DNA of 64,000 bases from Pirellulales bacterium (GTDB lineage: Bacteria > Planctomycetota > Planctomycetia > Pirellulales > JACPPG01). A program made the translations under genes and the position numbers. The notes under the pieces were generated by a model. It was not told where the DNA came from and did no database searches. It worked only from the letters and a program-made list of their open reading frames with translations. The stretch spans positions 1 to 64,000 of the forward strand of contig DASZWQ010000194.1 of assembly GCA_035546535.1 (NCBI GenBank), read 5' to 3'. Of the stretch, positions 25,380 through 29,523 are shown one piece after another; position 1 is the first letter of the stretch, and each line of letters begins with the position of its first letter.

Positions 25380-25413
25380 AAACAAAAACGGGGCGCCCAA
25401 ATTGGGCGCCCCG
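25380..25413 (-). terminator. Intrinsic terminator after the Cys-rich protein gene
   Basis: A perfect GC-rich stem (CGGGGCGCCCAA with its complement, 25389-25400 and 25402-25413) is followed, on the minus strand, by TTTTTGTTTG. It ends transcription coming from the Cys-rich gene at 25456-25848. Confidence 0.8.
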
Positions 25414-25455
25414 CCTGGAAAATCGAAACGATCAGCCATTTCGTCGACGACTCTC

Positions 25456-25848
25456 TCAGCCACGCGCGCAGCAACGGCTGCTCGCAGCGGTGCAGCATTG
25501 CGGGCAGCAAGCCTCGCACGCGTCACCGCAGCATGCCGAGCAGCTTGCGCCACAGCAATCGGTGGCGCACCCCGCACAGCAGCTTTGAGCAGCCGCCTTC
25601 GAGGCAGCCTTGGCGGCGCAGCAGCTCTTGGCGGTCGCCGTCGAGCCAGCCTTGGCGGCCAGCGTTTTTTCGCCGCCGAGGCAGCAGGCACTCCCGCCGT
25701 TAGCGCAGCATACCGCGCCGCTTACGCAGCAGTCCGGAGCCGTGGCCTGGGCGGCGCCACTAGCAGCCACACCAGTGCTTACCGACAGCGCCACAACGGC
25801 CACTACAGCCAGCGCGCAGCAACACACGAAAACGCGTTTCCTAGACAT
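25456..25848 (-). CDS. Exported small protein with 23 cysteines, mostly CC pairs
   Basis: I do not recognise the family. The 130-residue protein has a signal peptide (about 1-28, cut after a GVAA-type site). The mature part has 23 Cys in about 100 residues, 20 of them in ten CC pairs (for example 40-41, 47-48, 55-56, 76-77, 98-99, 114-115), spaced by Ala-, Ser- and Gly-rich linkers. There is no aromatic core. The density and pairing suggest metal (copper or zinc) binding or extensive disulfides outside the membrane; this is inference. ATG 25848 has AAGGAG about 8 bases upstream. The gene lies 69 bases after the next Cys-rich gene and ends at a strong terminator. Confidence 0.75.
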   Translation of the reverse strand: MSRKRVFVCCCALAVVAVVALSVSTGVAASGAAQATAPDCCVSGAVCCANGGSACCLGGEKTLAAKAGSTATAKSCCAAKAASKAAAQSCCAGCATDCCGASCSACCGDACEACCPQCCTAASSRCCARG

Positions 25849-25917
25849 GGAAAAACTCCTTAGTGAAATGACAAAACCAAACTTCAACTCAGGCCAAACG
25901 AAGGCACCGAGTGACGA

Positions 25918-26364
25918 TTAGTTCCGCCAGGTACAAAGGAGAACCCGCAACGGTGGATGCGAAGAATCGAAGGCAGTGGGCCCATCGACGAACGACCGAA
26001 CGCCCTCGCCGCCGGGGCACCACAGACGATCTACCGCGGCGACAACCGCCAGCGGATTATGCTCGTCGCGAGTCTCGAAGCGCGACGCAACCGGGCGGGT
26101 GACGGGATCACTGGGACGGCAGCACTCGCGGCAAGGGAGCGGCGCTGATTGTGCCGGCGTAGATACCGCCGCCTGCGCCGTGCCTTCGCGCTGGGCAGGC
26201 GTCTTGTGGCAGCAGCTTCGCCGCGCCACTTGCTCAACTGGTTGCCGAGGAGTGCAACAAGAACGCTGTCCCGCCTGACAATGCCGTGTCGGACCAACCC
26301 CGGCCATGAAAGTGGCCGCAGCCAGCAACACATGAATGCCAGGGCGTAGCGCAGAGAGCCACAT
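25918..26364 (-). CDS. Exported Cys-pair protein with C-terminal PPxRVL..W tail
   Basis: A 148-residue unknown protein. ATG 26364 gives a hydrophobic signal (HVLLAAATFMAGV). The mature half carries CC pairs at 36-37, 51-52 (followed by His-Lys) and 81-82, plus C29, C78, C116 and C144. The C terminus ends PPLRVLLCTW followed by two residues, like the end of the protein at 27265-27696. The TTG at 26409 would add 15 basic residues before the signal. Its role is unknown; the context of Cys-rich exported proteins suggests metal handling. It could be read as spurious were it not for the signal peptide and the shared tail. Confidence 0.55.
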   Translation of the reverse strand: MWLSALRPGIHVLLAAATFMAGVGPTRHCQAGQRSCCTPRQPVEQVARRSCCHKTPAQREGTAQAAVSTPAQSAPLPCRECCRPSDPVTRPVASRFETRDEHNPLAVVAAVDRLWCPGGEGVRSFVDGPTAFDSSHPPLRVLLCTWRN

Positions 26365-26426
26365 ATTTACAATTACGATCCGACGCGAGACGCGGTTCGA
26401 CCGGCGCAAGCCAGGAAGCGATAAAG

Positions 26427-26461
26427 GCGGGGCCTCCCTCGCTAAAGAGAGGAGGCCCCGC
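26427..26461 (-). terminator. Strong hairpin downstream of the YHS-repeat gene
   Basis: An 11-base perfect stem, GCGGGGCCTCC paired with GGAGGCCCCGC, with a 13-base loop, 32 bases after the stop of the gene ending at 26493. On the minus strand it is followed by CTTTATC, a weak T tract; in the plus direction it is followed by TTCTTAG. Confidence 0.65.
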
Positions 26462-26492
26462 TTCTTAGTAACAAATCACGTCCGACAACTCA

Positions 26493-27083
26493 TTACTTGG
26501 CCAGTTGCGGCAGCTTCGACGCGAACTTCGCCGGATCCTTCTCAAAGGCGGCCGGGCAGTTTTCGCAGCAGAAGTAAACCTTCTGACCCTGATACACGAC
26601 CGAGGCGGCCGGGTTGATCGGCTTGTTGCTCACCGGGCAGGTGGTCTGGGCCGTGCAGCACTTGGCCAGATCGCCGCCGAGGGCCTTGGCAACTTTATCG
26701 TCGGCCTTTTCCACGGCGCCTTTGCAATTCGGGCAGCAGAAGCCGACCTTCACGCCGTCGATCATCGCCGTCTGCTCGGGATTGCACGCCTTGCCACTGA
26801 TCGGGCAAGCGGTCTGCTTCAACTGGCCGGTGCCCAACATCTGCAGAGCGGCCTTGGCGGCCATCTTCTTGTCGTCGGCCTTGAAAGCCTTCGGGCAGTT
26901 GTCGCAGCAGAACTGAACCTTGCCGCCCATGAACGTGAGCGTCGACGATTCCTTCGCGTCCTTGCCCGAGACGGGGCACTTGGCCTTGAAGGTGGCGTCC
27001 GCCGCGTTGTCAGCGGCGATCAGGGCTTGCGTCAACAACAGGGCCGAAGCAACGAGGCCCGCCAATGCGATACGAGTCTTCAT
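26493..27083 (-). CDS. Exported protein made of three YHS-like metal-binding units
   Basis: A 196-residue protein with a signal peptide (1-23, LIAADN). The rest is three tandem units, about 36-85, 93-143 and 149-192. Each opens with CP(V/I)S(G/N)K and ends with FCCxNC (59-63, 116-120, 172-176), the last followed by PAAFEKDPAKF. This is the YHS-domain pattern, found in copper ATPases and related metal-handling proteins. Fifteen Cys are present, enough for one site per unit. It probably binds a soft metal in the periplasm; the metal is unknown. The ATG at 27083 has AAGGA 7-8 bases upstream, with a candidate promoter just before it. Confidence 0.88.
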   Translation of the reverse strand: MKTRIALAGLVASALLLTQALIAADNAADATFKAKCPVSGKDAKESSTLTFMGGKVQFCCDNCPKAFKADDKKMAAKAALQMLGTGQLKQTACPISGKACNPEQTAMIDGVKVGFCCPNCKGAVEKADDKVAKALGGDLAKCCTAQTTCPVSNKPINPAASVVYQGQKVYFCCENCPAAFEKDPAKFASKLPQLAK

Positions 27084-27121
27084 GAAAATATCCTTTCAAT
27101 CAAAAGCGAAGAACTGTTCTG

Positions 27122-27149
27122 AGTAAAACCGTCCTAGGCGTCTTGTCAA
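27122..27149 (-). promoter_or_regulatory. Candidate promoter of the YHS-repeat gene
   Basis: Minus strand -35 TTGACA (27149-27144), 16-base spacer, -10 TTTACT (27127-27122). The predicted start is near 27115, about 30 bases before the ATG at 27083. Confidence 0.5.
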
Positions 27150-27162
27150 ATCCCGCAAGACG
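27139..27162. promoter_or_regulatory. Inverted repeat over the -35 of the YHS-repeat gene
   Basis: CGTCTTG (27139-27145) and CAAGACG (27156-27162) form a perfect 7-base inverted repeat with a 10-base spacer. It covers the -35 element, a position suited to a repressor or a MerR/ArsR-like metal regulator. No regulator gene is adjacent. Confidence 0.4.
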
Positions 27163-27264
27163 AGAGCATGATCACCCATCGAGAGCGCGAACGCAACAGC
27201 CCAACCGCGGTTAAGGACCGATCCTTGCCGCCGGCGCGCAATGTCACTGTCGCGCTTGCCGGAA

Positions 27265-27696
27265 TCAGATCAACCAGACCGAGAAGAGAACTCGCGCGGG
27301 GGGCGCCGTGATATCCTCAGCCCCTCGTCGCTCGAGTGTTTTCGACGTGTCGCAGACCGTCGAGCCGGAGCTCATCGCGTCGAACTGGATCGCTAGAAGC
27401 GTTTGCTTGACTAGTTCCTGGAGGTCGGTCGGCACCGGAGCCGCGGGCCGGGCCGGGCTCTTCGAGCAACAGCAGTGCGGCTTAGCGGCGCCCGCTGTTT
27501 GCGCAACTCGCTTGGCGCAGCAGCTTTTGGGCTCAGCCCCGTGAGACTGCGCACCGTGAGACTTGCAACAGCCGCAGCATTTCCTGGCCGTGGGCTGGCT
27601 CGCGCAACTGCCGATCGATTGCGGGGCCCCGTTGACGACAATCACCACGACCGCTAACGCCGAGGTCAGCAAATGGTGAATGACGGCACGGGTCAT
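27265..27696 (-). CDS. Exported Cys/His-rich protein with C-terminal PPxRVL..W tail
   Basis: A 143-residue unknown protein with a signal peptide (about 1-24). The mature part has a dense CC/His block: C40-C41-x-C43-C44, two SHGA segments, C59-C60 and H74-C75-C76-C77, which looks like a soft-metal site. A predicted helix (TDLQELVKQTLLAIQFDAM) follows, and the chain ends PPARVLFSVW plus two residues, closely like the tail of the protein at 25918-26364. The two are probably related or use the same tail. It is transcribed alone or ahead of the YHS gene (181-base gap). Confidence 0.65.
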   Translation of the reverse strand: MTRAVIHHLLTSALAVVVIVVNGAPQSIGSCASQPTARKCCGCCKSHGAQSHGAEPKSCCAKRVAQTAGAAKPHCCCSKSPARPAAPVPTDLQELVKQTLLAIQFDAMSSGSTVCDTSKTLERRGAEDITAPPARVLFSVWLI

Positions 27697-28092
27697 ATCT
27701 TCGTCCGACTGTCGTGAGAGGCTGTCGCAATTCTCGTCGCGCGGCCCGCTGGCATGATTGTCGAGGGGCCCACGGGCTAAGTCAAGTTAATCTCGGGCCT
27801 TTGCTGGCCGCCCACCGCCATCGAGCGGAACGCGTTAATCCCTTGCATGGTTGCAACTTGTGGCTACCGTCCCGGGTGTCCGGACAGAAAGGCTGTCCTG
27901 CCAGTCGCCTCGAACTCCCCGGCTTCGACGGTCGCTGCTTCACGACCGCGGTGCGGCGGTCGCTATTATCGAACGCCTGGGGGCGCGTACTATGATAAAT
28001 TGTTCTGCGTGCGCTACTTTTCTTGAAGCCGACGACGTTTGGCGCTTGTCGCGGCCTGCTACTCTCGACCAAGGATGGGGGCGATTGAAGTT
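27697..28092. other. Divergent intergenic region
   Basis: About 395 bases between the Cys/His-rich gene (minus) and the di-haem cytochrome gene (plus). A 6-base inverted repeat GGACAG...CTGTCC is at 27882-27898. A TATGAT at 27991-27996 could be a -10 for the cytochrome gene but lacks a good -35. No coding signal. Confidence 0.4.
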
Positions 28093-29523
28093 ATGTCACT
28101 CCGGGCGCGAAATCTGTCTGCGGTCGGCACATTCCTCATTCTCGCGACTTTTTTTCCGCATGTCGCTAGCTGCTCGGCCGATGAGCCCGCGGGGTGCGAT
28201 GCGAAGGGACCAATCGCTCGGGCGGTTGCATCGACGGACGCGGACGCCGCCGCGCGCGGTTACCAACTGCTGCGCGGCAAGCCGTACCTGCCTGCGGAAT
28301 TTCCAGCCTCGGCGTTCGACAATATCTGGCGGGCCTGGCCCTCGGCTCTGCAGGGTGCGGCCAAGGAGGCGACCCCCGAAGAACGGCGCAAGATGGCCCT
28401 CTCGCGTTACGGATTGATCGAGGCACCCGAGGATCCGGCCGGCATTCCGATGGCCTATATCAGCGACGGTCGCGGCGGATGGTCGTTGACGTGCCTGTCG
28501 TGCCACGGCGGCAAGGTCGCGGGCCGCTCGATGCCGGGCCTCGGCAACTCGCACTTCGCCTTCACGACACTCACGCACGAAGTGATGCGCGCGTGGATGC
28601 TGGCCGGCGGCAAGCCCGCGCCGTGGCAGTTGAGTCGTTTGACGGCCTACTTGGGCGCAAGCAACGGCACCATCGACGCGCAAGTGTTCAGCATTCAGCT
28701 CACGGCGCTTCGCGACGATGACATGAACGTTCACTTCGACGCGCAGATGCCACCCTTTGCGCATCACGACCTCGACGCGCCCCCTTTGTGGAACGTGAAG
28801 AAGAAAAAGCGATTGTATATCGACGGCTTTGCCGAGAAGTCGCCGCGCACGATCATGCAGTTCGCGCTCTACCCGGAAAATGACTCGGCCACGATCAAGG
28901 GATGGGAAGAGGATTTTCGCGACATCCTGGCCTGGATCGAATCGCTTGAGGCGCCGAAATATCCGTTCGAGATCGACAAGGAGCTTGCCGCCCGGGGCGA
29001 ACCGATTTTTCGCCGCGCCTGCGCGGAATGTCATGGCACTTACGGGCCGGCCGGAGAATATCCTGAAAAGCGCGTGCCCATCGATGTCGTGAACACCGAC
29101 CCGGTGCGTTTGACCGGCATGCCAGCGGAACATCGCCGTCGTTTTGGGGTCGGCTGGCTGGGCGAGGACGGAAAACGCACTGCCGTCGAAAAGCCTGAGG
29201 GCTACGTGGCTCCGCCGCTGGATGGCGTCTGGGCCTCGGCTCCGTACCTGCACAATGGCTCGGTGCCGACCTTATGGCATTTGTTTCATTCTGATTCGCG
29301 CCCTGTCGTCTGGCTGCGCACCGAAGACGGCTACGACCAGACGCGCGTCGGTCTGGAAGTAACAACTCTCGACGATCTGCCTGCGGCGGCCAAGGACGCG
29401 GCCGAGAAGCGTCGTTATTTCGACACGCGCCTGTCCAGCAAAAGCGCGGCGGGCCACACCTTTCCCGACGACCTGGCCGAGGACGAAAAGCAGGCCGTCA
29501 TGGAGTACCTGAAGACACTTTGA
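28093..29523 (+). CDS. Exported di-haem c-type cytochrome, peroxidase/RoxA-like
   Basis: A 476-residue exported protein with two CxxCH haem motifs, CLSCH (134-138) and CAECH (310-314). The signal ends near VASC (24-27), which also fits a lipobox. The C-terminal APYLHNGSVPTLWHL block is characteristic of di-haem peroxidase/RoxA-like cytochromes and their relatives. The region between the haems contains the PPLWNVKKKKRLYIDGFAEKS segment. It is probably a periplasmic oxidoreductase; the substrate cannot be read from sequence. The ATG at 28093 precedes the signal directly. It lies 57 bases ahead of the hydrolase gene. Confidence 0.85.
   Translation: MSLRARNLSAVGTFLILATFFPHVASCSADEPAGCDAKGPIARAVASTDADAAARGYQLLRGKPYLPAEFPASAFDNIWRAWPSALQGAAKEATPEERRKMALSRYGLIEAPEDPAGIPMAYISDGRGGWSLTCLSCHGGKVAGRSMPGLGNSHFAFTTLTHEVMRAWMLAGGKPAPWQLSRLTAYLGASNGTIDAQVFSIQLTALRDDDMNVHFDAQMPPFAHHDLDAPPLWNVKKKKRLYIDGFAEKSPRTIMQFALYPENDSATIKGWEEDFRDILAWIESLEAPKYPFEIDKELAARGEPIFRRACAECHGTYGPAGEYPEKRVPIDVVNTDPVRLTGMPAEHRRRFGVGWLGEDGKRTAVEKPEGYVAPPLDGVWASAPYLHNGSVPTLWHLFHSDSRPVVWLRTEDGYDQTRVGLEVTTLDDLPAAAKDAAEKRRYFDTRLSSKSAAGHTFPDDLAEDEKQAVMEYLKTL

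Follow-up and report, generated by a model that had tools for sequence, protein, structure and literature searches.

What do four adjacent genes for small exported proteins of extreme cysteine content do in a planctomycete? The genes lie in a Pirellulales bacterium (contig DASZWQ010000194.1), within an analysed stretch of 64,000 nucleotides, hereafter the window. A sequence-only reading had taken them for a periplasmic metal-sequestration or metal-delivery locus. Our analysis supports the metal-handling role, but a function in sequestration or delivery is unlikely for two of the four, A and C. Judging from their sequences and those of their relatives, we suggest, with a probability of about 0.6, that A and C sense metal as nascent leader peptides and that B and D are the metal-binding targets they regulate.

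Gene layout and transcription units

Four minus-strand open reading frames together span positions 25456-27696 exactly and are transcribed in the order A, B, C, D. A (27265-27696, minus strand; 143 residues) is an exported, cysteine-rich protein of leader type, with syntenic orthologues in two congeners, G003 and G001. B follows after 181 nt (26493-27083, minus strand; 196 residues) and is an exported protein with three YHS/TRASH units (PF04945). C (25918-26364, minus strand; 148 residues) is again exported, cysteine-rich and leader-type, and its likely start is the ATG at 26364 rather than the TTG at 26409. D, an exported Cys-repeat protein (25456-25848, minus strand; 130 residues, likely start ATG at 25848), lies 69 nt beyond C. 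Signal peptides of A and C were judged by eye, and the AF2 model of C has a helix at residues 7-21.

The order A-B-C-D is kept in G003 (G003:C136) and G001 (G001:C54), with protein identities between the window and G003/G001 of 47/38% for A, 84/76% for B, 49/37% for C and 69/49% for D. The four are therefore not chance open reading frames, and the row of consecutive exported Cys-rich genes that had been read from the sequence is real. In a third congener, G004, B stands alone between the same two neighbours. In the window, lpxB lies downstream of D and a cytochrome-like gene lies divergently upstream of A (both named from sequence). The product of this divergent gene (28039-29523, plus strand) is exported and haem-binding (CxxCH), and a related gene flanks B in G004.

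The genes do adjoin one another, as had been described for a single four-gene cluster, but the cluster is two tandem units, A-B and C-D. Indeed, a terminator-like hairpin (GGGGCCTCC...GGAGGCCCC; 26427-26459, minus strand) separates B from C, a second one follows D (25386-25416, minus strand), and each unit has a promoter-like element. The hairpin after B is clear in the window genome and in G003, and is not evident in G001. Upstream of A, a sigma70-type promoter-like sequence, TTGACT-N17-GACAAT (27757-27785, minus strand), is conserved across three congeners, in flanking sequence that differs between them. An ECF-sigma-type promoter-like sequence, GAACC-N16-CGTA (26374-26398, minus strand), was read just before C from the alignment of three congeners, in which its spacer is N15 or N16. 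Only about 9 bases lie between the end of this element and the ATG of C, and the C-D mRNA may therefore have almost no 5' leader. A single operon or system of all four genes was rejected in view of the hairpin after B, the separate promoter-like elements and the lone B of G004. Intrinsic terminators were sought in the A-B gap and none was found, and an Rfam search of the window matched no family.

The putative leader family of A and C

Both A and C carry the CC and His blocks that had been noted in two of the genes, as CC/CxC clusters with His; what had to be corrected is their relationship, as the two belong to one family. They share their Cys clusters and a C-terminal motif, PP-x-R-[VI]-x-x-x-x-W-x-x, A ending in PPARVLFSVWLI, with Ser in place of Cys at −5, and C in PPLRVLLCTWRN. 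Pfam and NCBIfam hold no model of this family, and we found no description of it in the literature searched on planctomycete YHS or leader proteins. We collected 67 non-redundant members; those that could be placed are all from Planctomycetia. The members are exported and carry Trp at −3, in most cases together with Cys at −5.

A first survey looked at the region 5' of YHS genes from the order's other families and selected open reading frames on Cys doublets and not on Trp; all clearly exported CC-rich frames (11 loci) ended in Trp-x-x-stop. A larger order-wide survey showed that most YHS loci, the two-unit ones especially, are without such an upstream frame, and that one locus has Tyr for Trp. 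By profile search, members were found in 33 of 398 genomes of the class, although inspection showed that two or three of these 33 lack the Trp end. After the alignment had been improved, matches came from 35 of 392 genomes across the phylum; full-length matches all fell within the same class, Planctomycetia, and outside it this search gave partial, weak matches only.

The Trp codon at −3 lies at 27274-27276 in A and at 25927-25929 in C (both minus strand). Among leader/target pairs, Trp was found at −3 in 38/38 leaders and Cys at −5 in 33/38, against a background of 2.0% Trp at −3 in all open reading frames of the named loci. To our knowledge, no stalling activity has been described for this motif.

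The distance that separates the last Cys cluster from this Trp is also fixed. It is 65 residues in both A (CCC) and C (CRECC). In 42 non-redundant leaders, taken with no filter on spacing, the last Cys pair stood 65.6 ± 3.5 residues from the Trp, whereas the spread was ± 21.9 for total length and ± 22.4 for the span between first and last Cys (Levene p ~1e-6 to 1e-5). The 67 members gave 65.6 ± 3.8, a spread bounded by choice, this set having been taken within a 55-75 window. Named YHS-anchored loci contributed 7 new exported upstream Cys frames with a Trp end and a spacing of 63-69; one further locus of that set has Tyr, and two non-exported frames were set aside by eye. Pairwise identity among the 42 leaders was 15% in the linker versus 36% in the last ten residues. 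A linker of fixed length and unconserved sequence points to a distance constraint on the nascent chain, since in a folded domain the sequence would be conserved too. AlphaFold predicts C to be disordered outside its signal helix (pLDDT 56, pTM 0.23), a prediction that rests on a 14-sequence alignment.

We also observed a sister subtype, with Ser or Phe for Trp at −3, yet with a spacing of 66-68 residues. It was seen in upstream Cys frames at L239, L265 and L280, and at L241, L246, L266, L269 and L273, with the ends VLYCVSLI, LLFCVSLT, ILLCVSLI and CVSLCRFTL. At L265 and L280, the sister-subtype frame lies just upstream of a Trp-type leader, and an RND operon comes next.

The family resembles two known leader systems. 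In CutF, copper on the nascent exported protein slows export and opens a stem-loop over the Shine-Dalgarno (SD) sequence of the next gene; in Rhodobacter capsulatus the protein has a CxxxC about 45 residues before a proline-rich end, and the stem-loop is intergenic (PMC9973294). The A/C proteins are likewise small and Sec-exported, with a Cys metal motif and a conserved C-terminal motif, and they stand directly before a copper gene; control of the next SD by the nascent chain is what we propose here too, and RND adaptors and CusA are among the targets of both. Unlike in CutF, C-x-C or CC lies about 66 residues before C-x-W-x-x-stop, PP occurs in only about one third of the family's leaders (A and C included), the candidate anti-SD is part of the leader's final codons, and YHS and CC-repeat proteins are among the targets. 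By the rule of PMC9973294, a protein is CutF-like when it has fewer than 150 residues, a signal peptide, PP among its 15 C-terminal residues and a gene on the same strand no more than 1000 nt away. A and C conform to this rule, with 143/148 residues, a signal peptide, PP at −12/−11 and the next gene at 181/69 nt; the same study also defines 29 sequence clusters.

In CruR of Bordetella pertussis (DUF2946), copper relieves an arrest at RAPP and Rho then terminates (PMC9426467); the arrest has been demonstrated in vitro (PMC12992588), and the cruR-bfrG gap is 162 nt (PMC9426467). CruR and the A/C family have in common an upstream frame heading copper operons, a Cys pair at a conserved distance from the C-terminal motif, and long intergenic regions; the A/C family differs in its spacing, about 66 rather than 45, and in its targets. 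Membership of A and C in DUF2946 was rejected: the PF11162 (DUF2946/CruR) profile matched none of the 16 or 25 leaders tested, among them A and C (at E above ~0.1 most matches are lost to the HMMER filters), RAPP is absent from the C-termini of A and C, and their spacing is 65 residues instead of 45. A few DUF2946 homologues have been mentioned in Planctomycetes (PMC9426467), and the family may overlap in part with these or with CutF-like clusters. A metal-sensing nascent leader is a known kind of element, of which the A/C family appears to be a new variant.

Downstream genes and their ribosome-binding sites

In a mechanical count, a metal-handling gene lay within 500 nt downstream of the leader in 56 of 71 cases, against 5 of 70 with one on the same strand upstream; the classes seen were YHS, Cys-repeat and CusB/CusA-type RND. 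The count drew on 72 candidates, among them five seemingly spurious frames whose spacing is aberrant, and its classifier overlooked the ATPase cluster and some of the YHS variants. On reading by eye, a metal-handling gene comes next after about 64 of the 67 leaders. Leaders precede double and triple YHS genes, D-like CC-repeat genes with a P-type ATPase gene next to them downstream (TIGR01511, the copper family, above cut-off), and RND adaptors with CusA/CzcA (TIGR00914, above cut-off); one target cluster contains a MerR-type regulator and a copper-type ATPase. Because ATPase and RND families lie beside the leaders, copper or silver is the likely metal, zinc or others being possible. The sequence-only reading had made itself depend on Cys pairs conserved among homologues and on co-occurrence of the genes across planctomycetes; both were found, so it survives on that point. 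The clearest exception to the neighbourhood pattern is the leader-type protein of L073 (ending ARVLFSVWLN), which has a DUF1080-like gene at 450 nt and no metal gene.

B matches PF04945 above the gathering score (45.6 bits vs 30.3, E=7e-12), which bears out the three YHS-like units suggested earlier. Its 12 cluster Cys are spread over three units, each C...CC..C, and its AlphaFold model is well folded (pLDDT 88), with a fold resembling, at weak E-values, the YHS of toluene monooxygenase hydroxylase and the TRASH of ZMYM5. B is like YHS/TRASH proteins in its units and fold, and differs from them in having three units in tandem and in being a stand-alone, exported protein. Most YHS loci in the order-wide survey carry relatives of B without A, C or D; B is often alone, and A-B-C-D is therefore not an obligate four-part system. 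Relatives of the triple-YHS protein were also seen in one genome bin each of Nitrospira and Omnitrophota (L182, L216), possibly by horizontal transfer or a binning error.

The 23 Cys in about 100 residues that had been counted in one gene were found in mature D, the signal peptide of which holds 3 more. D matched nothing in Pfam or NCBIfam, known metallothionein profiles among them. It is like bacterial metallothioneins and Csp copper-storage proteins in its extreme Cys content, and Csp1 is exported, as D is; however, D has CC doublets rather than CxC or CxxxC. Both D-like and YHS-like genes sit elsewhere with copper P-type ATPases and CusA/CzcA RND pumps of the two TIGR families above, again above cut-off. 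With B as a YHS/TRASH protein, these neighbourhoods argue for a metal-handling role of the cluster, and we infer that B and D are metal-binding products regulated by the leaders. Other exported Cys-rich proteins follow leaders at L085, L245, L260, L261 and L277 (25-38 Cys in 117-211 residues); they have CC repeats or CxxC/CxC repeats, e.g. CECVNCACPDC, and look like several unrelated Cys-repeat families.

Inside C, the Leu-Leu codons CTC CTT (25936-25941, minus strand) are complementary to the SD of D, AAGGAG (25856-25861, minus strand), with which they are predicted to pair. The pairing is preserved by covariation in two congeners (CTCCTT/AAGGAG, CTCCTC/GAGGAG and (C)TCCTG/CAGGA). Short-gap pairs (<130 nt) in general have last ten leader codons that are unusually complementary to the target SD against a synonymous-codon null (first set n=14, Fisher 2e-4; new pairs n=17, Fisher 3e-6), the 130-nt cut having been chosen after the first set was seen and a few of the "new" pairs being already in that set. 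When partners were swapped, short-gap leaders gave −14.1 kcal/mol with their own target vs −10.4 with others (z = −6.5, p = 1e-4). Control windows gave z = −2.6 to +1.1, the neighbouring window −48..−25 also carrying a weaker complementarity signal (z = −2.6).

Among long-gap pairs, A-B included, complementarity was not significant by partner swap (p = 0.16); the leader end of A has no complementarity to the SD of B, and that SD is mostly unpaired. General sequestration of the SD by leader end and intergenic fold was rejected, as the mean unpaired value was 0.31 vs 0.34 in shuffles, no difference, and 0.35 vs 0.33 against leaderless YHS genes (p = 0.67). Since long-gap pairs are null and sequestration is not general, the data support an SD switch for pairs of the C-D type only, where the leader end may control access to the downstream SD through its complementarity. 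Gaps of about 180 nt between leader and YHS gene (L242, L268, L270, L272, L278; alignment A11) contain two mutually exclusive hairpins, CGGAT/ATCCG and ATCCGTTC/GAACGGAT, which are partly conserved; covariation is slight, and L272 keeps a short core only. These could possibly form an attenuator switch.

A model of nascent-chain metal sensing

We propose that each unit pairs a leader gene, A or C, with a target gene. The leader would be exported co-translationally, and its Cys pairs would reach the periplasm while the last codons are in the ribosome, the ~66 residues spanning exit tunnel and translocon. Metal bound at the periplasmic Cys pairs (most likely Cu(I), possibly Ag) would alter the force on the nascent chain, and the hydrophobic-C-x-W-x-x-stop motif would set the length of the ribosome pause at the leader end. 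Where the gap is short, as in C-D, the paused ribosome would cover the anti-SD in the last leader codons and free the target SD; for A-B, with its 181-nt gap, the RNA step would not be the same anti-SD. The target product would be a periplasmic thiol protein that binds the metal, through three YHS units in B and CC repeats in D, and by analogy with detoxification targets metal is expected to raise its expression. A and C would probably be copper sensors during their own synthesis by the ribosome, for which we infer both stalling and a response to metal.

Many Cys pairs, export and co-occurrence with metal genes would also suit periplasmic metallochaperones or scavengers that pass metal on to B or D or to RND pumps or ATPases, with the C-terminal motif as a docking tail for a common partner. 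We consider this unlikely: no folded domain is predicted, the linker is fixed in length and unconserved in sequence, the targets are structurally unrelated (YHS, CC repeats, RND, ATPase) yet the leader is nearly always directly 5' of them, and the SD complementarity of the last codons has no role in such a scheme. The fixed C-terminal motif, the fixed Cys distance, the disordered model and the place before the target fit a cis-acting leader better, as does, for C only, the complementarity to the SD of the next gene. That four unrelated Cys-rich genes simply form a periplasmic cluster for metal sequestration is quite improbable; the YHS nature of B and the extreme Cys content of D agree with it, but A and C are one family with a fixed C-terminus, and B stands alone in most YHS loci as well as between its usual neighbours in G004.

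A and C could instead be leader frames of a Rho- or promoter-based attenuator like CruR, where translation matters, there is no SD switch and the complementarity is secondary. YHS targets do lie mostly at long gaps of 99-260 nt, like cruR-bfrG, and SD sequestration is not general; the specific SD complementarity of short-gap pairs speaks against such an attenuator, which we find possible but doubtful overall. It still falls within the leader reading, and for A-B it is the likelier form. Counting against any leader reading, the long intergenic regions could hold separate promoters.

Extending the metal-sensing leader reading to the whole class is more tentative, and we give it slightly less than even odds. 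Planctomycetia would then share copper-responsive arrest leaders, placed ahead of YHS, Cys-repeat, RND and Cu-ATPase genes, with a proline-independent C-x-W-x-x-stop, a 66-residue ruler from metal to peptidyl-transferase and an anti-SD within their final codons. If this is true, much of the planctomycete periplasmic metal defence would be under nascent-chain sensing, beyond transcription factors alone, and ribosome studies would gain a new, non-proline arrest motif. It would also give a function to many short Cys-rich frames that otherwise resemble metallothioneins, and would open the geometry idea of CutF and CruR to testing on many natural variants.
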